Below, piece after piece: positions 10,691 through 29,962 of a stretch of DNA of 64,000 nt. The notes under the pieces were generated by a model, which worked only from the letters and a program-made list of their open reading frames with translations, had not been told where the DNA came from and did not search any database. Source of the DNA: Paracyclopina nana (lineage: Eukaryota > Arthropoda > Copepoda > Cyclopoida > Cyclopettidae); contig JAGUCH010000002.1 of the NCBI GenBank assembly GCA_019096065.1, forward strand, positions 8,692,501 through 8,756,500, in the 5' to 3' direction. The stretch's first letter is position 1, and each line of letters opens with the position of its first letter. The position numbers were made by a program, and so were the translations under genes.

Positions 10691-11253
10691 TGAAAAATTC
10701 TTAGGGAATAATATTAGAAATCATTAGCTCCAGCATCTGCATTACTTTCTACTTTTGTTCCCTCATTTAGTGATAGCAGCGCCGCCGCAGTTATGACGAA
10801 CAGATTTCGTGATTTTATGTCTTTTTGTTCCGTCAAGAATAGCCTTGCGAGATGGGGCTGACCAAAGTAACATTTTTTTGTGCACAACTAACTCTGTAAC
10901 TCACGAAGCGAAACAGACTCGTTTGGATGTGTCCTTTTGAGTTGTTCTGTGTTACGATGTGACAAATTTTGGTCACAACATAGCCGTATTCGTCGATTTT
11001 TTGGTCACTTTGTGACAAAAGACCCTAGAGGATCAAACCCCAAATCATCTTTCGCCGGTCAAGCAACCCAAGCTGGGCCGTTCGCAATTTTGGTAAGTGC
11101 GCGTGACTCGTAAATAAGTAAGCCGTGAAGTCAGCTGATTCATAATTTAAATTTCCCGCTAAGCTGCACGTCGCAAGTCGCAACTTGCTTCAAAGTCAAC
11201 ACAAAAGCTCAGAAAGTTGGTCTCACTTCGATTGAGCTAATTGCAACTGCAAA
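10691..11253 (+). promoter_or_regulatory. Upstream region and possible 5' leader of the NSMCE2 cluster
   Basis: A strong splice-donor-like sequence, TTTTGGTAAGTGCG, has its GT at 11093-11094, about 160 nt before the NSMCE2 ATG. It could be a 5' UTR exon. Part of 10830-11030 (GTGACAAATTTTGGTCAC) resembles inverted sequence near 24720-24790, so the proximal promoter is partly repeat-derived. Confidence 0.35.
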
Positions 11254-11823
11254 ATGGAAGAAAGTCAGAAGAAACATCTACAAGCAGCCATGGCAGCTGT
11301 CATGAATAGCATTAATACGACCGTTCAGTTCATGAGCGAAGAAGCGCCCGAATTTCATGCAACCGTGACTTCATTGCGCAAAACTCTCGCAGATTTGATT
11401 ATTCAAGAAAACGAGGCTGAAAAATCGATTCAAGTCATGTTGCGGCTGAAAAGTCAGGTTAGAGATGGATACTTGGAGGGGAACGCATCATTCAACATGG
11501 AAGACATGTTTGCTCAAGCTATGAAGCGAGAAATGGGACCCAAATTGAACATTGACAAGCACCCCATGATGCAAAAGTTTGAGTCTGCCATTTCTCGATC
11601 GTCGATTGCCGAGGCTCCAACCCAGAAGCTCCATTCGTCTGCTGAGAGCGATGAAGAGGAATTAGGTGATGACAATGTCAAGAATACTCGATGCGGCCAT
11701 GTCTACAGTAAAGGATGGGCACGTCAAGCTATCAAGACTGGGGAGCTCGAGTGCCCAGAAGAGGACTGCGATGAAGAAATTGCTGTCAATGATTTACTAA
11801 ATTACTCATCAGATTCGGATTAA
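11254..11823 (+). CDS. NSMCE2: NSMCE2/MMS21-like SUMO E3 ligase with shortened SP-RING
   Basis: Single exon, 189 residues. The N-terminal two thirds are helical, as in NSE2 proteins, which bind the SMC5 arm through a coiled coil. The C-terminus carries a zinc-binding half of an SP-RING: Cys147-Gly-His149, then Cys167 and Cys172 (CPEEDC). These match the four zinc ligands of NSMCE2, preceded by VKN as in the family. The segment that normally comes first (the CPIT-type loop contacting the E2 enzyme) is absent and replaced by acidic residues (ESDEEELGDD). The family is usually 200-270 residues long. NSE2 sumoylates SMC5/6 complex targets in DNA repair. It is the first gene of a four-gene same-strand cluster. 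Activity as an E3 is uncertain. Confidence 0.72.
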   Translation: MEESQKKHLQAAMAAVMNSINTTVQFMSEEAPEFHATVTSLRKTLADLIIQENEAEKSIQVMLRLKSQVRDGYLEGNASFNMEDMFAQAMKREMGPKLNIDKHPMMQKFESAISRSSIAEAPTQKLHSSAESDEEELGDDNVKNTRCGHVYSKGWARQAIKTGELECPEEDCDEEIAVNDLLNYSSDSD

Positions 11824-11859
11824 ACATTCGTTGAATTCCGAAATTCACAAATTGTAAAG

Positions 11860-11880
11860 TTTTACTTTCTATTTTTCAGG
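11860..11880 (+). promoter_or_regulatory. Acceptor-like site just upstream of BABAM2 ATG
   Basis: The tract TTTTACTTTCTATTTTTCAG ends at 11879, 7 nt before the BABAM2 ATG and 56 nt after the NSMCE2 stop. It reads as a strong 3' splice site, yet no donor lies in the short gap. A trans-spliced leader, or cis-splicing from a distant leader exon, would use it. Confidence 0.6.
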
Positions 11881-11886
11881 TTGAGT

Positions 11887-13008
11887 ATGGCGAACATTTT
11901 GGAGTTTGAGTTGCATCCAAAAGTTAGGCCTTTTGTTGAACAATTGCTGGAGTGTGGACAAGTCAACTTCTTCCAGAATGTCTCCGTGAGCCATTTGCAA
12001 TGCGGGTCTAAGTCTCATACATTTAACGACAGATTTCTGGTCACTCTTCCGTATGGATATGGTGATGCCATCAAGATTTACATCTTTTTCAATGCAACCG
12101 ATCTGCAAAACTACGACATGGTCATCCAGGACAACGTCAAGTTCCAAAAATACCTCACTGATATGGCATACGGATCTTGCCCTGTGGAGCAATTTGATCC
12201 ACGAAATCATCGTTCGCTGTTCCATGTGATCAATGGACTGAAGGAGTGCTTTCATGACATGAATCAAGAATTTTACAGCCAGATCTCGCCGGTCTATCGC
12301 AAAACGATTGAAAGCCTCAACAATTCCGGATGCATCAGTTGCTTTGAATCATCCATCGAAAATGGGACGATGAAGTTCCTAGTGAAACTTAATGTCACTG
12401 ATGAAATGGAGAATTTTCATTTTGCTTTTCCGAATTGTGATGACACTCTGATTGAGATGTATTGCACATTCAAAACGGGGCTCTTTGATGGAAGCAGTCC
12501 TGCAGACGAAGCAGTCACATTGTGGCCATCCCAAGCATTGGGAGCCTTGTTGGGGAAAAGCCCCATTGCGTTTCAGCCCAGCTATGACAAAACTCTTTGC
12601 CCCATTGAAGAGTTTCTGCCCAAAATTGCTCGTGACATTTCACTAGCTTGCAAATCCTGGCAAGAGTTGATGGAGGCTCGACGAGATTTTATGGTCTGGA
12701 TGGCGTTCTATTTACAAAATCGATTAATTTTCTGCGATTTTGAAACCTACCTTGAGGCTCAAATTGGGATTGCCATCCCAACCTCCAATGTCAATATTAT
12801 TGTGGAAGTCAAGCTGCATCCCAACTCTTTGGCTGCGTTCCCCGACATTTTCGTTCAGGCTGTGGACTTGACCAAAAATGTAATTTCCTACAGCAAGCTT
12901 GTTCCGCCTGAAAATCAGCGTTTTGTCACACTTGATGAGTCTATGGCCAAGTTTATCTGCTCTGACCACCTCGAATACATTCAGGCGCTAGTTCTCTCTG
13001 AAATGTAG
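11887..13008 (+). CDS. BABAM2: BRISC/BRCA1-A complex subunit BABAM2 (BRE, BRCC45)
   Basis: Single exon, 373 residues from this ATG (human is 383). The N-terminal UEV-like fold aligns with BRE. It begins with a helix (LHPKVRPFVEQLL), followed by the NDRFLVTLPYGYGDAIKIYIFFNA strand pair (positions 49-72), where the human protein has the equivalent DRF and IPYAGE motifs. A second UEV-like half follows. BABAM2 is the scaffold of the BRCC36 K63-deubiquitinase complexes acting in DNA repair and signalling. Its neighbour NSMCE2 is also a genome-maintenance protein. The start was chosen at 11887 because it directly follows the acceptor-like site. No introns are visible, as for the other members of this cluster. 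Confidence 0.85.
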   Translation: MANILEFELHPKVRPFVEQLLECGQVNFFQNVSVSHLQCGSKSHTFNDRFLVTLPYGYGDAIKIYIFFNATDLQNYDMVIQDNVKFQKYLTDMAYGSCPVEQFDPRNHRSLFHVINGLKECFHDMNQEFYSQISPVYRKTIESLNNSGCISCFESSIENGTMKFLVKLNVTDEMENFHFAFPNCDDTLIEMYCTFKTGLFDGSSPADEAVTLWPSQALGALLGKSPIAFQPSYDKTLCPIEEFLPKIARDISLACKSWQELMEARRDFMVWMAFYLQNRLIFCDFETYLEAQIGIAIPTSNVNIIVEVKLHPNSLAAFPDIFVQAVDLTKNVISYSKLVPPENQRFVTLDESMAKFICSDHLEYIQALVLSEM

Positions 13009-13077
13009 AGCCTATTCAATATGTTCCCGCCTAAGTTTGAATATATGTTTACGTTTTGCTGAAGTTTTGCCTTTTCT

Positions 13078-13102
13078 AATAAGATTGCGTCTATTCTCTA
13101 GA
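13078..13102 (+). promoter_or_regulatory. Acceptor-like site just upstream of SMG9 ATG
   Basis: Pyrimidine-rich sequence ending TCTATTCTCTAG has its AG at 13100-13101. One base separates it from the ATG at 13103. The gap from the BABAM2 stop is 94 nt. Confidence 0.55.
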
Positions 13103-14437
13103 ATGTCAGGCCGCCGAGGTAGTTCCAGAGGAGGTGGCTCCCGAGGTGGGGGTTATGGTGACAAGAGACGAGACCAAGTCAGAGTCAAGTCAAGGCCTCA
13201 AGAAGATGCTAAGCCTCCGATCATATTGGCCAAGCCAGATAGACCTGTCACCAAGGAGCCATCTCAGCCTCGAGACCAGGAATACGAGCTTCGAAATCCT
13301 AAGCCATCCGAGGTGAGGCAACTATTGGCAAGGAGAGACTCGCTACATAGAGAAGACACAGAATCGCCAAAGCCTGAGCAGCCGACCAAGGCGGTGGTGG
13401 CTCCTGTCAAAATCAGCTCAGGCTCTAATATTCCGAGCAGGAACGTAAAGCTCGTTGATGATCAGCAATTCTGTGAGCCATTGGCTGACTTCATGACTGA
13501 CAACCAAGATTTCCTAACGATTGGAGCCTTGGGAACCCAGAGCGCGGGTAAATCATTTCTTTTGAACGCCATCGTTAAAATCTGGAGTGGAGTACCTGCC
13601 AAAGAAGAGGAAAATAAAAGTGACGTCAATGGCTATGGCAGCCAAAGGACATTCAGAGTTCAGACGTTCGAGAAGCAAATGTTGTCAGAGCATTGCACGA
13701 ATGGCATCAATGCTTGGGTTAACGCAGACGGAGTCATCTTTTTGGACGCTCAGCCCATTTTCTCCAACTCGGTGCTAGACCGCACTGTTCACTTGGAGAA
13801 GAAGTTCTCCTTCGAATTCAACGGAGCTGAAAACACAGTGGATGTGCACTCGATGCAAGAAATTGGTTACCTCATGAGCATTTGCAATGTGGTTCTCATT
13901 GTTCAAGAGGGCTCCAATTGTGACGTTGACCTTATTGAAAAGCTCAAAACTTCGGACTTGCTCAAACCCTCCTTCCCAGCGCCAGCTTCATTTGAGGAGC
14001 CCAATGCGCTGATTGAGTATTCACCAGAGGTCATATTCGTGCATAATAAAGTGCAAACAACTGAGATGAACTCCCAGACACTTACAAATCTGAGGCAAAT
14101 CTATGCAGACAACCTTGATGGCAGCCCGTTGAATTTCCGCTACAGAAGTGGCCTTTCGGCCGACACAAGGGACAAGAAGCAAATCAACCTATTTCTGATA
14201 CCTGATGTGGAATCAAGTTTGGACTTGGACTATGAGGGCAACTTTGATCCCACCGTGACGTTTAACAGCTCTATTCTATTGCTTCGTCAAGCGTTGTCTA
14301 GAGTTCAGCCAAGACCATTTTCCAGCAACCTCAAGCAGACTGAAAAGATCTGGTTTAGTCATGCCCAAAAAGCATGGGAGCAAATCAAATCCTCTAGCTT
14401 TTATCTAGAGTATAGTCGCCTAATGCGTCTGCACTGA
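13103..14437 (+). CDS. SMG9: Nonsense-mediated decay factor SMG9
   Basis: Single exon, 444 residues (human 520). The N-terminus is a disordered Arg/Gly-rich and then Pro/Lys-rich tail. From about residue 113 comes the conserved VKLVDDQ motif, then a G-domain with P-loop GTQSAGKS near residue 154 and a downstream FLDAQPI segment matching SMG9 FLDTQPI. The C-terminus, KIWFSHAQKAWEQIKSSS then LEYSRLM, closely parallels SMG9. SMG9 forms a heterodimer with SMG8 that restrains SMG1 kinase during phosphorylation of UPF1 in mRNA surveillance. The ATG lies one base after an acceptor-like AG. An upstream in-frame reading to 13037 has no ATG and is rejected. It is the third member of the cluster. Confidence 0.9.
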   Translation: MSGRRGSSRGGGSRGGGYGDKRRDQVRVKSRPQEDAKPPIILAKPDRPVTKEPSQPRDQEYELRNPKPSEVRQLLARRDSLHREDTESPKPEQPTKAVVAPVKISSGSNIPSRNVKLVDDQQFCEPLADFMTDNQDFLTIGALGTQSAGKSFLLNAIVKIWSGVPAKEEENKSDVNGYGSQRTFRVQTFEKQMLSEHCTNGINAWVNADGVIFLDAQPIFSNSVLDRTVHLEKKFSFEFNGAENTVDVHSMQEIGYLMSICNVVLIVQEGSNCDVDLIEKLKTSDLLKPSFPAPASFEEPNALIEYSPEVIFVHNKVQTTEMNSQTLTNLRQIYADNLDGSPLNFRYRSGLSADTRDKKQINLFLIPDVESSLDLDYEGNFDPTVTFNSSILLLRQALSRVQPRPFSSNLKQTEKIWFSHAQKAWEQIKSSSFYLEYSRLMRLH

Positions 14438-14505
14438 CACTTTTTGGCGCTTTTCACAAGTACAAGTGTGGTGGCTTTTCCTCTCCACAGATGTCTAATT
14501 TTGTA

Positions 14506-14511
14506 AATAAA
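14506..14511 (+). terminator. Poly(A) signal AATAAA of SMG9
   Basis: It lies 69 nt after the SMG9 stop and 44 nt before the next ATG. That gives the order stop, AATAAA, acceptor, ATG, which is typical of operons resolved by trans-splicing. Confidence 0.55.
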
Positions 14512-14524
14512 CAGTTTCATAAAA

Positions 14525-14549
14525 GTCTCTGCTTGTGTAAATTGCAGCG
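14525..14549 (+). promoter_or_regulatory. Acceptor-like site just upstream of UQCC3-like ATG
   Basis: TCTCTGCTTG then AAATTGCAG places an AG at 14546-14547, two bases before the ATG at 14550. A second acceptor-like tract, CTTTTCCTCTCCACAG, ends at 14490. Confidence 0.55.
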
Positions 14550-14834
14550 ATGTCAGGGAAGAAACCCTGGGCCTTTTTGATTGTCCGAGGACTCACACCT
14601 CTAATTGCTGGCTTCGGCCTTTGGTTTGTGCTTCAAGATAGGGGAAATCAGAAAGCCAAAGAAATCATGGCAAGCATGGAGCTTGACCAACGAGCAGTGA
14701 AGATGAATGAAAAAGAACTCATGGTTGCCACCTTGAAAGCTGGAGGGCCAGCAAGCCTAAAAGAATTGAGAGAAGAAACTGCGCAAAGGCGACGGGCAAT
14801 TGCAGAAAATTACAAACCTCAAGAATCAAAGTAG
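14550..14834 (+). CDS. UQCC3: UQCC3-like complex III assembly factor
   Basis: Single exon, 94 residues, the usual size for UQCC3 (93 in human). One N-terminal transmembrane helix (AFLIVRGLTPLIAGFGLWFVL) is followed by a charged helix. GNQKAKEIMASMELDQ and ELMVATLKAG parallel the human GERRKQEMLKEMPLQD and QLLLATLQEA segments. UQCC3 sits in the inner mitochondrial membrane and stabilises cytochrome b during complex III assembly. It is the last gene of the four-gene cluster. The assignment rests on a short, weakly conserved protein. Another small mitochondrial assembly factor is possible. Confidence 0.6.
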   Translation: MSGKKPWAFLIVRGLTPLIAGFGLWFVLQDRGNQKAKEIMASMELDQRAVKMNEKELMVATLKAGGPASLKELREETAQRRRAIAENYKPQESK

Positions 14835-14882
14835 CCATATGCTGTAAATTTAGTTTTCACAAAGGCATTCAGATGTAAAGTA

Positions 14883-15335
14883 TCAAAATAAATCATCGTC
14901 ATTATCGCTGAACTCCTCGTCTGATGATTCATCGGGAATTTTGGAAAAGTAAGCAGACACAACACAAATCTGGTTACCCACAATTTTGTTCACGGAGACC
15001 ACTCTGTCGCACTTAGAGTTCCACAAACATCTACCAAATACCTTGACTCCTTGGCCCCAATTTTCTGTCATGACAACATTCACAACAATCTTATGGTCTT
15101 TTGCAGATGAGCAATCTCTAATCAAAATCTTATTAGCATGCGACGCTAATCGATGAGGCACCGTTTCGAGGTCAGGGGTTGAAGCCTCTGCATTGCTGTC
15201 AAAGAACTCTTGAGCGCACTTTTCAAGCACTTCTTTCACATTTTCTTCATCCAGACAACTTGGCTCATCTGGAACTTGTATGGTTGACTGTGTTTTCTTC
15301 TCTTTAAAAACTTTTCTGACAAACGCCTGAGCCAT
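14883..15335 (-). CDS. Tctex1-type dynein light chain family protein
   Basis: Single exon, 150 residues. The Tctex1 fold is seen from about residue 35. It has an N-terminal helix, the strand HKIVVNVVMTENWGQGVKVF, then GRCLWNSKCDRVVS and a final strand ICVVSAYFSKI. These correspond to the family pattern of a Tyr/His-K-hydrophobic strand, GxGV, CxW and CVVxA. Members bind dynein intermediate chains or act in ciliary and cytoplasmic dynein-2. An acidic tail (DESSDEEFSDNDDD) extends beyond the usual end, which is atypical. Its stop lies 48 nt from that of the UQCC3-like gene, tail to tail. The UQCC3 AATAAA (14887-14892) lies inside this coding sequence on the other strand. Confidence 0.75.
   Translation of the reverse strand: MAQAFVRKVFKEKKTQSTIQVPDEPSCLDEENVKEVLEKCAQEFFDSNAEASTPDLETVPHRLASHANKILIRDCSSAKDHKIVVNVVMTENWGQGVKVFGRCLWNSKCDRVVSVNKIVGNQICVVSAYFSKIPDESSDEEFSDNDDDLF
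14887..14892 (+). terminator. Poly(A) signal AATAAA for the UQCC3-like gene
   Basis: It lies 53 nt after the UQCC3 stop and antisense to the last codons of the Tctex1 gene, so the two mRNAs should overlap at their 3' ends. Confidence 0.5.
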
Positions 15336-15569: not shown

Positions 15570-16062
15570 TAGAGGTGTATCGGGCCTAGAAAAGTCGGGC
15601 TCGGGTCGGGCTCGGGCTTTCAAAAAATGACTCGGGTCGGGTCGGGCCGGGCCTGAACTTTTTTTTCAGGCTTCGGGCTTTTTCGGGCCAGTCAAAAAAT
15701 GTTACGGGCTTTTCGGGCCGAGACAAAATCTACAATTTTTCAGGAAAAATCTGAATAAAAATCACTTTTTTGTTAAGAAAATCACCTCAATTACTGAAGG
15801 TTATGCAAATGAAGGGATACTTAACAATCAAACTCAACATTAAAGCTCATTATCTGGAGCAATTGTTTTTCTGATTTTGAACAAGTTTTTGAATTTAAAA
15901 AAATGTCATTCGGGCCACTTTGGGCTTTTTGAAAATGACTTCGGGCTTTTTCGGGCTTTCTGAAAATCGGCCCGAGTCGGGCTCGGGCTGGGGTCTTATT
16001 TAGCTCGGGCCAGAAATTGGTATCGGGCTTTCGGGCTCGGGCCTGAGCCCGATACACCTCTA
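15570..16062. mobile_element. hAT-type MITE, TCGGGC family, copy 1
   Basis: The ends are TAGAGGTGTATCGGGCC and its complement, and internal CGGGCTCGGGC repeats dominate. A perfect 8-bp target-site duplication CTTGGCAC flanks it (15562-15569 and 16063-16070), as expected for hAT. It is about 493 bp and non-coding. It lies in the divergent interval between the dynein light chain and IMP3, ending 55 nt before the IMP3 ATG. Confidence 0.88.
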
Positions 16063-27590: not shown

Positions 27591-28479
27591 TTAGTTATTC
27601 TGTTGCATTTGTGGATGAGGAGGCTGCTGCTTGGGTCTGGGCATTTTGTTTAAGATGGAGTTCATCTCTTTTTTCTCATCAAACGATTTCCATAAGTCGT
27701 AAAGGTTAAGGATGTACTTTGAAATCTCTTGTACCTTGTCCATGTCCACGTGCAGCTCTGCAAACCAAGACCGGCAATCCTTATTGAGGATGACGCAAGC
27801 CATGTGGAGGCATGACAATGCTATTAAATATGGAGGATAAAGGAGGGAGACATCGGTTCTTAGGCTGTCATTAATGATACGCCAGGCTACGGGCAAGACT
27901 GAGTGTTCAACCCCAAGGTCTTGGCAATATTGTACCAAAGGCCTATAAGGTTGAAACACGATAAGGCAGCAATCCATATTTTCCAAAAGGTAGAATTCGC
28001 ACTCCAAGATGTTATTTGGGCGATATGGGAAGTCCTGAAAGGAAGAACCAAAAGTCAATCACTCGGCTAACAGTTGTTTGAGATAGCATTACATATACCT
28101 GGTTGGGGTATGCGTAGGAGAACTTATTCTTGATGACAGTCGTGCACGTGTTGATTAGCCTAGTGTTGGAGATAACCCCGAATTCCTCCACTTTTGAAGC
28201 CAGAAAAATGGAAGTAGGCGCTAGGAGCAAGGGGTCCACGCATTTCAGCGAATTTTGAGAGTAGAAGCGCTTGAAGTAAACGGTTGCAGTGGCAATGACT
28301 TGTTGGCGCAATTTTAAATGCTCTCCCAAAGTCTGAATGAAGCTGGCAAAAAAGATAATGAGCTTTTGGTATTCTTCGTCCGACAATACATTGAGGTCCG
28401 CCTGGCGCTCTCTTTGCAGGTCCGATTTGTCCAAAATCCACTGAGAGCAGTGAGAGCTCTGCCAAAAATTACCAGCCAT
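27591..28479 (-). CDS. CycC: Cyclin C, Mediator kinase module
   Basis: Two exons, 28479-28099 and 28034-27591, give 274 residues (human 283). The start MAGNFWQSSHCSQWILDK and the cyclin box (KVEEFG, then LECEFYLLENMDCCLIVFQPY) are characteristic of cyclin C. The second cyclin fold and a Pro/Gln tail follow. Cyclin C activates CDK8 in the Mediator kinase module. Its ATG is 13 nt downstream of the MED20 stop on the same strand. No separate promoter fits between them, and the MED20 stop overlaps an AATAAA. Co-transcription with MED20, another Mediator subunit, is likely. The 64-nt intron has a GTATATG donor. Confidence 0.95.
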
Positions 28480-28492
28480 GCTTGGTATTATT

Positions 28493-29131
28493 TTATTGCT
28501 GCTGGCTTACGGGATTGCCACTCGATCCTCCTTTGCGTATGACGTTAAATTGCTCTAGGTATTGATGGATGGTGTCAACTGGCGAATAGTTTTCAGCGAA
28601 CCTACTCTTCAAGTAAAGTGGCACTTGATTTGTGACAATGCTTCCAAGGAATCCTTGCATGAACTCGATCATAAGCCCCCAGCAGCTTTGTACCACTTGA
28701 CAGGGCAGGTATTCCACTTCGACGAGAACACCCTTGCTAGAGCCGGCAACTGACACAATTCCTATCTTCACCACAAAATCGCCTATCTCAAAGCGCGGCC
28801 CCTTCGACTCGATCTTCAGCTTTTTCGAGTAGACGTTGGATAGCTTCAGCAGTAACAGATCGAAAAGGGTGTCGCTGGTAAACGTGACTCTCTTCTCGGA
28901 GTGCTCCAATACAGAAAAAACAGTGGCAGGTTGTTCACTGTTGTGGAGGACGTGAAGTGTTCTTGGGGGCCCTCCCAAACTCGGAGATGACAAATAGGTT
29001 TCGCAGTCGACCAAAAACTGGCCTGTATGGTTGGCACCAAGATTGACAATGCGCTTGTGGATAAGTTCGACGACTTGAGCGGCGGTTTTATCGTGAGGAA
29101 TGGGATATGCCTGTAGAATGGCGACTCCCAT
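28493..29131 (-). CDS. MED20: Mediator subunit MED20
   Basis: Single exon, 212 residues from the ATG at 29131, the same length as the human protein. It begins MGVAILQAYPIP. The family signatures LVDCETY and VLHNSE are present, then the strands FEIGDFVVKIGIVSV, VEVEYLPCQVV and a helical LMIEFMQGFLGS. MED20 pairs with MED18 in the Mediator head module, contacting TBP and Pol II. Its ATG follows the MZT1 stop after only 5 nt (TTGTC). No acceptor-like AG is seen in that gap. The stop codon overlaps AATAAA. A start three codons further up would not be an ATG. Confidence 0.95.
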   Translation of the reverse strand: MGVAILQAYPIPHDKTAAQVVELIHKRIVNLGANHTGQFLVDCETYLSSPSLGGPPRTLHVLHNSEQPATVFSVLEHSEKRVTFTSDTLFDLLLLKLSNVYSKKLKIESKGPRFEIGDFVVKIGIVSVAGSSKGVLVEVEYLPCQVVQSCWGLMIEFMQGFLGSIVTNQVPLYLKSRFAENYSPVDTIHQYLEQFNVIRKGGSSGNPVSQQQ

Positions 29132-29136
29132 GACAA

Positions 29137-29412
29137 TCAAAATTGGTTGTTCATTTGACGGACCGCTTGACTTTCTCGGCGGAGTTCACGGACGACGGCA
29201 GCCAAAGCCTCGGGGTGAGCACCTCGTTCACACAATCGTACACAGAGGGCAAGAGAATCGGCGTCCAGCCCAGTGTTTAAGAGTTTCGATAGCTCAAGGA
29301 GAGTGGCAAATGTCTCTTTGGCTTCTAAAATTTGCGATCCAGATGACTGGTTGTTCTGCTGTTCACCTCCTCTGCTGCTTCCTTCTTTCTTGTTGCTATT
29401 GCTTGCAGCCAT
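29137..29412 (-). CDS. MZT1: Mitotic-spindle organizing protein 1 (MOZART1)
   Basis: Single exon, 91 residues (human 82). A polar N-terminal tail of about 30 residues precedes the conserved MOZART1 helices: LLELSKLLNTGLDADSL, then LCERGAHPEALAAVVRELR. MZT1 is a small gamma-tubulin complex subunit required to recruit and activate microtubule nucleation. It is the first gene of the tight trio with MED20 and cyclin C. A hAT MITE ends 68 nt upstream of its ATG, so the basal promoter is either within those bases or inside the MITE. Confidence 0.93.
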   Translation of the reverse strand: MAASNSNKKEGSSRGGEQQNNQSSGSQILEAKETFATLLELSKLLNTGLDADSLALCVRLCERGAHPEALAAVVRELRRESQAVRQMNNQF

Positions 29413-29480
29413 CACGGGGCCATATTTCCAGCATTCGTCTCACAGATTTGCCGCAAAGAAAACAAAGCTAACTTTTCTAG

Positions 29481-29962
29481 TAGTGATGGAACGAGTTTCA
29501 GCTTGGCTTGAAAGCTTGAAGCTGAAACCCAGCTTGAGCTACATAAGCAAAAAGCTTGGGATCGCTCGAACCAAATTTTGAAAAGCTTGAAAAAGCTTGA
29601 AACCCAAAAACGCAAAGCTTGAAAAAGCTTGACACCCAAAAAAAACCTTAATCCATTTTTAATCTAAACAAAAAGGGCTGATTTTAAAATTAACTAATAC
29701 TTGAGGGACAACTTAAATCTAAGTTAAAGCTATATCTGTCATTATTTGCGCTTTTTGGGTAATTTTGTCAAATCTGGTGACTAATCGCCATTTTTTATGC
29801 TAAAATTCTAAAAAAGTGAAAAGCTTGAAAAAAGCTTGAAATGTGAAATTTTGAGCTTGAAAAAGCTTGATAATAATTTTCAAAAGCTTGGGATCGCTCG
29901 AACACTTTTCAAAAAGCTTGAAGCTTGATCAAGCTGAAAATTTCCGGCTCGTTCCATCACTA
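29481..29962. mobile_element. hAT-type MITE, GATGGAACGAG family, copy 1
   Basis: 482 bp, with ends TAGTGATGGAACGAG and its complement. It is flanked by a perfect 8-bp duplication TTTTCTAG (29473-29480 and 29963-29970). The interior is built of AAAGCTTGAA-type steps in both orientations. An inverted sister copy of 481 bp lies at 46458-46938. It sits between the divergent MZT1 and CCT7 genes. Confidence 0.9.

Follow-up and report, generated by a model that had tools for sequence, protein, structure and literature searches.

In the cyclopoid copepod Paracyclopina nana, a 64,000-nucleotide (nt) window on contig 2 (JAGUCH010000002.1, positions 8,692,501 to 8,756,500 of the forward strand) carries four single-exon frames, NSMCE2-like, BABAM2, SMG9 and a short last frame, which run head to tail on the plus strand with gaps of 63, 94 and 112 nt between them (Table 1). 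An original prediction read this cluster as a trans-spliced operon, and on re-reading of the sequence its frames, coordinates and gaps were all correct. The layout is real and operon-like; trans-splicing is possible, but not needed.

The names given to the four frames differ in strength. SMG9 can be taken as certain from its sequence, as the frame matches solved SMG9 structures in PDB (E 1e-35 and 3.4e-35) and also gives a weak match, under the cut-off, to Pfam Smg8_Smg9. BABAM2 is a supported assignment on sequence grounds, with Pfam BRE at 27.7 bits against a cut-off of 25.8 and no match in PDB at E 0.01. The NSMCE2 assignment is weak, the frame showing a sub-threshold match to Pfam zf-Nse (E 0.0058) and, in PDB, only an unrelated match (E 0.74). 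For the last frame, which had been called UQCC3-like, neither Pfam nor PDB gave a match up to E 1, and the name appears unsupported. E2F-like motifs, which we take to be of the form TTTSSCGC, lie at window positions 11152-11159, before NSMCE2, and 14443-14450, directly after the SMG9 stop.

Table 1. Features of the four-gene cluster and of the MZT1 cluster, in window coordinates.
Feature	Position	Strand	Basis or score
NSMCE2-like single-exon frame, 189 amino acids	11254..11823	+	weak zf-Nse match
BABAM2/BRE single-exon frame, 373 amino acids	11887..13008	+	Pfam BRE above cut-off
SMG9 single-exon frame, 444 amino acids	13103..14437	+	PDB SMG9 matches
Last frame, 94 amino acids, earlier called UQCC3-like	14550..14834	+	name without Pfam or PDB support
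Non-coding donor-like site TTG/GTAAGT upstream of NSMCE2 (donor 11093)	11090..11098	+	score 7.2
ATTAAA overlapping the NSMCE2 stop	11819..11824	+	sequence reading
Strong acceptor (3' splice site) of BABAM2, AG 7 nt ahead of ATG	11860..11879	+	score 10.3
Possible 97-nt intron over the BABAM2 stop, fusing BABAM2 and SMG9 in frame	13005..13101	+	gene-finder choice; donor 3.6
Weak acceptor-like site before SMG9, AG 1 nt ahead of ATG	13082..13101	+	score 4.4
Further acceptor-like site for the last frame, higher-scoring and 5' of AATAAA	14471..14490	+	score 6.9
AATAAA in the gap that follows SMG9	14506..14511	+	sequence reading
Acceptor-like site of ordinary strength for the last frame, AG 2 nt ahead of ATG	14528..14547	+	score 5.9
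MZT1 (MOZART1), cistron 1	29137..29412	-	Pfam E 9.8e-22
MED20, cistron 2, 5 nt after MZT1	28493..29131	-	Pfam E 4.9e-44
Cyclin C (CycC), cistron 3, 13 nt after MED20	27591..28479	-	solved cyclin C, E 6.5e-128

The cluster was judged against a local reference, consisting of the window and the 200 kb upstream of it (264 kb in all), within a genome of 91.95 Mb in 10 contigs; 80 matches to the cuticle domain Chitin_bind_4, spread over nine of these contigs, mark it as that of an arthropod. No match to the OS-D chemosensory domain came up, in a search whose controls gave none either and which is therefore no evidence of absence, and COX1 likewise had no match. A small purpose-written gene finder, retrained on its own output, produced 69 models with 142 introns. 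About half of the predicted introns (72) are 49-75 nt long, and single-exon models are common in the region (26 of the 69 raw models). The splice-site matrices were built from 109 of 112 introns shorter than 400 nt, with introns inside two of the clusters under test excluded; being self-trained on predicted introns they give approximate scores, the median for training donors being 7.1. A plain open-frame scan for tight pairs was contaminated by intron-containing single genes and repeats. For the spacing count, 18 of the 69 models (0-3, 9, 17-20, 23, 33, 40-42, 44, 46, 52 and 68) were omitted as repeat-like, tiny or doubtful, the merged or mis-started models 4, 30, 55 and 60 were swapped for hand-read frames, and one hand-read gene (14883-15335) was added; the pair g11-g10 is doubtful.

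Counted in this way, 11 of 28 tandem pairs and 6 of 13 convergent pairs lie no more than 120 nt apart, and the spacing of tandem pairs differs from that of divergent pairs (Fisher p 0.008), the closest of 13 divergent pairs being 460 nt apart. In 10 of 13 convergent pairs the neighbours are 38-189 nt apart, which makes short 3' ends and tight packing the norm in this region. Gene ends can lie very close together; two divergent starts in this sample do not, and in tight tandem clusters transcription of a downstream member thus probably relies on the gene before it. The gaps offer hardly any space for promoters of their own. The operon idea finds its strongest support in this spacing, which suggests shared transcription. 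As regards packing, the predicted operon layout is thus borne out.

The evidence for trans-splicing is less even. An acceptor-like AG had been placed 7, 1 and 2 nt upstream of the start codons of BABAM2, SMG9 and the last frame; these positions are right, but a convincing splice signal is found at BABAM2 only. The BABAM2 acceptor exceeds 97 of 109 training acceptors, is the best within 10700-14900 (4.2 kb) and belongs to a class of sites found 0.15 times per kb; compared with 5000 dinucleotide shuffles of the gap, and counting sites within 10 nt of the gap end, its p is 0.007. The sites before SMG9 and the last gene exceed 21 and 32 of the 109 training acceptors, with shuffle p of 0.19 and 0.12, respectively. 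Taken together the three flush acceptors give p 0.008, and if an acceptor is allowed anywhere in the gap the values become 0.03 (BABAM2), 0.86 (SMG9) and 0.40 (last gene). The BABAM2 acceptor thus favours splicing at the NSMCE2-BABAM2 junction; those at the other two junctions are at chance level and do not discriminate. Across the region, 675 of 9811 ATGs (6.9%) have an acceptor scoring at least 5 within 10 nt. Among other gene starts the count is 5 of 66, close to this background, and flush acceptors are therefore no general feature of gene starts here.

Such a background would suit four independent monocistronic genes, each with its promoter in the preceding coding sequence and with acceptors that are coincidental or unused, and the tight packing seen also at convergent ends agrees with this. 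The exceptional BABAM2 acceptor and the distance kept between divergent starts both speak against it, and we consider independent genes an unlikely account, albeit one of some weight.

The statement that no coding donor exists to match the acceptors fails. Coding donors precede them at 11458 (score 7.1), 11666 (5.5) and 12880 (7.4), in a genome region where the training median is 7.1, and the non-coding site at 11093 is a candidate partner of the BABAM2 acceptor: joined to 11879 it would give a 787-nt intron enclosing the whole NSMCE2 open reading frame. Chance can account for two of the three acceptors and cis donors are present, and the trans-splicing part of the predicted layout is not supported. 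The gene finder makes a different choice, a 97-nt intron that would remove the BABAM2 stop and leave BABAM2 and SMG9 as one gene, their frames matching. Both its donor and its acceptor (4.4) are weak and the two proteins match unrelated families, which makes the fusion very unlikely. As to 3' ends, the order of stop, AATAAA, AG and ATG that had been described between SMG9 and the last gene is indeed present, and at the first junction the stop of NSMCE2 shares nucleotides with an ATTAAA; in the BABAM2-SMG9 gap, searched for AATAAA and ATTAAA, neither is found.

Internal ATG triplets were counted over all frames and compared with the coding sequences of 41 of the 69 models, both whole and in length-matched windows. 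NSMCE2, BABAM2 and SMG9 together contain 72 ATGs against 60.8 expected, and are not depleted; NSMCE2 has 20 against 11.3, a density at least as high as in each of the 41 controls. Scanning through these frames is therefore unlikely to deliver the downstream proteins, and the downstream genes probably each need a 5' end of their own, provided by leader splicing in cis or trans or by internal starts. Candidate clusters for leaky scanning do occur in the same region (see below), but the ATG content and the gaps of 63-112 nt, rather than 13 nt or less, make it highly improbable that the four genes form one mature polycistronic mRNA read in this manner.

The account that we favour, with chances put at about even, is a compact tandem array of ordinary nuclear genes with ordinary cis-processing. 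The four genes would share one transcription neighbourhood, and the 5' end of each downstream message would arise in an ordinary way. For BABAM2, the acceptor at 11879 may be joined in cis to a leader exon that lies before NSMCE2 (donor 11093) or to a site inside NSMCE2, while SMG9 and the last gene may use starts inside the preceding gene or weaker leader splices; a spliced-leader RNA would not be required. Cis-processing is favoured because the best acceptor can be paired with a median-strength donor 787 nt away, because donor 12880 precedes the SMG9 site and the two other flush acceptors are within chance, and because other starts lack flush acceptors beyond background.

Several observations weigh against this account. 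Donors as good as 11093 occur 0.97 times per kb, so that this one is possibly there by chance. The closest divergent pair lies 460 nt apart, and a promoter for each downstream gene would accordingly fall inside coding sequence. An acceptor scoring at least 7 within 60 nt is found at 8 of 52 other starts against 3.8 (standard deviation 1.8) in shuffles, an excess that could reflect introns in 5' untranslated regions or leader splicing. Of eight tandem gaps measuring 38-200 nt, three contain an acceptor of at least 9, as opposed to none of 20 convergent strand-gaps. Leader splicing, whether cis or trans, would explain both excesses. The three tandem gaps are those before BABAM2, before an SLC25A22-like carrier that follows a POLK-like gene (both named by eye) and at model g37. 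The POLK-like/SLC25A22-like pair lies on contig 2 about 12.5-15.7 kb before the window start, with a gap of 164 nt; its acceptor (10.1) is 29 nt past the upstream stop, and there is no ATG from there to the downstream start.

In a spliced-leader operon, a polycistronic pre-mRNA would instead be cut by polyadenylation and by trans-splicing of a short leader at 11880, 13102 and 14548. This would agree with the tight tandem spacing, the BABAM2 acceptor and the combined value of the three sites, the last junction, where an acceptor follows the AATAAA, the ATTAAA that overlaps the end of NSMCE2 and the strong acceptors of tandem as opposed to convergent gaps, and crustaceans with a spliced leader exist, as described in PMC4664967. 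The case is weakened because two points that supported it, three good acceptors and the lack of a donor, fail. Further, the acceptors of the eight tandem gaps of 38-200 nt combine to p 0.088 only, the BABAM2-SMG9 gap has no polyadenylation signal, the tightest clusters of the region have no acceptor between their genes, and the leader searches described next gave no leader-like gene at the three 5S loci scanned and no close match to two copepod leader patterns. We therefore regard a spliced-leader operon as unlikely.

No spliced-leader RNA gene was found, by weak tests. Among the matches listed for the calanoid leader core across the genome, no place has fewer than two mismatches. With up to three mismatches there are 107 places (54 + 53), whereas the reversed pattern has 19; a single repeated sequence makes up at least a dozen of those listed and thereby accounts for part of the excess. 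Apart from this repeat, no tandem array of calanoid-pattern places was noticed among the matches listed. Some copies of the repeat, probably a mobile element, form inverted pairs about 778 nt apart (for example C1:261036-261836, C4:8453532-8454333 and C7:5248412-5249212). Searched for as a pattern in the genome, 26 nt taken from a siphonostomatoid leader gave no match up to three mismatches. Of 30 fetched 5S ribosomal RNA loci, five were inspected by eye and three scanned by program, and the three scanned loci hold no gene with the leader-like combination of donor, Sm site and hairpin; against Rfam at E up to 1 they gave 18 5S matches and one microRNA-family match far below the gathering score. 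Leader-like places number two in the 264 kb and three in one shuffled copy. As leaders differ from lineage to lineage and the genome was searched by pattern only, these negatives are weak and do not decide the matter. Contig 1 has two differently organised 5S arrays, one of which carries a diverged second 5S copy in each unit of about 470 nt.

A more unusual feature of the region than the four-gene cluster is a set of nearly gapless, mostly ATG-poor clusters with inter-gene gaps of -1 to 13 nt. One lies inside the window and comprises MZT1, MED20 and CycC. The alignments of MED20 and of CycC to solved homologues begin at residue 1, which shows the 13-nt gap between the two genes to be real; CycC has one intron (28035-28098), its exon ends being taken from the gene finder. 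Two others lie on contig 2 before the window start: AROS-DPM2-NMRK-TRIT1 at about 93.9-97.2 kb, with gaps of 3, 6 and 5 nt, and RPB7 (named by eye)-CDPF1-PIGA at about 171.0-173.4 kb, in which the CDPF1 stop and the start of PIGA overlap in the sequence TAATG. The Pfam families MOZART1, Med20, cyclin, AROS, DPM2, IPP transferase, CDPF1 and PIGA are confirmed, and NMRK matches solved NMRK1 at E 5.7e-20. No acceptor-like site is present within the 3-13 nt gaps of the tightest clusters. Short degenerate repeats of the CGGGCTCGGG and CAAGCTTTT types were seen by eye near gene starts at window positions 15577-16060 and 29480-29960.

The upstream frames of these clusters contain few ATGs. MED20 has 2 against 12.7 expected, AROS 1 against 10.0 and NMRK 1 against 14.2, counts as low being absent from 1525, 1693 and 1438 control windows, respectively. 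For MZT1 (1 against 5.5) and DPM2 (2 against 5.3), 64 of 1987 and 224 of 1997 control windows are as low, yet all five frames are ATG-poorer than every one of the 41 control coding sequences. CDPF1, with 6 against 8.6 and 444 of 1778 windows as low, is not depleted; this, together with the TAATG overlap, makes termination-reinitiation a candidate model for CDPF1-PIGA. The six frames pooled have 13 ATGs against 56.6 expected (Poisson p 3e-12). When the protein is held constant by synonymous resampling, the scarcity of out-of-frame ATGs has p 0.044 for MED20, 0.045 for NMRK, 0.095 for AROS, 0.38 for MZT1, 0.59 for CDPF1 and 0.93 for DPM2. These modest values imply that much of the scarcity resides in the amino-acid sequences. 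All eight internal methionines of solved MED20, counted in the alignment, are replaced here, and CycC, the last cistron, retains four of the nine in its solved homologue by the same count. NMRK has one out-of-frame ATG in 714 nt and no internal methionine. At the 12 junctions scored, compared with 28 tandem pairs in all, the median ATG-free stretch ahead of the start is 90 nt, as against 36 for internal methionine codons (p 0.0014). The start context of MZT1, with G at -3 and +4, is by eye not weak.

MZT1-MED20-CycC is thus a candidate tricistronic mRNA that may be read by leaky scanning, a mode of translation that we infer in this genome from sequence alone. It could further be proposed that the region holds two kinds of co-transcribed cluster, one ATG-poor, nearly gapless, tri- or tetracistronic and leaky-scanned, the other ATG-rich, such as NSMCE2-BABAM2-SMG9, and resolved by trans-splicing at flush acceptors; we consider this two-part scheme improbable as a whole. 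Taken more broadly, the data suggest that unrelated genes are packed into polycistron-like clusters in this compact arthropod genome, and that the ATG count of upstream frames separates clusters that might be readable by scanning from those that hardly would be.

Spliced-leader operons occur in nematodes, tunicates and flatworms. The four-gene cluster resembles them in its head-to-tail unrelated genes and short gaps, with an acceptor and, at one junction, an AATAAA before the ATG, but differs in that two of its three acceptors are weak, cis donors are present and no leader RNA was found in the searches above. The trans-splicing reading, if true, would place spliced-leader operons in an arthropod; none appeared among the matches listed in a literature search on arthropod, mite and copepod operons or polycistrons that covered few subscription journals. 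Copepods add a common leader to mRNAs by trans-splicing, in an account that nowhere uses the word "operon" (PMC4664967), and a methods paper states as background that no operons had been reported in copepods and amphipods, which it names as the crustaceans with a spliced leader (PMC7986045). P. nana shares its arthropod affiliation with these copepods, yet its genome gave no close match to the calanoid core or the siphonostomatoid stretch.

The nearly gapless clusters find their parallels elsewhere. Drosophila sloth1/sloth2 is described as dicistronic, its two frames lying about 5 nt apart, with evidence that leaky scanning occurs (PMC9681215), and an AUG-poor upstream frame is noted for Drosophila stoned and Snapin (Wall 2005, as cited in PMC11892635) and for the leaky-scanning dicistronic mRNAs of green algae (PMC11291117 and PMC11892635). 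MZT1-MED20-CycC and AROS-DPM2-NMRK-TRIT1 are like sloth in their gaps and like stoned, Snapin and the algal mRNAs in their AUG-poor upstream frames, but hold three and four cistrons instead of two. The reported four-gene cluster, in contrast, is unlike all of these leaky-scanning systems, as its upstream frames are not ATG-poor.

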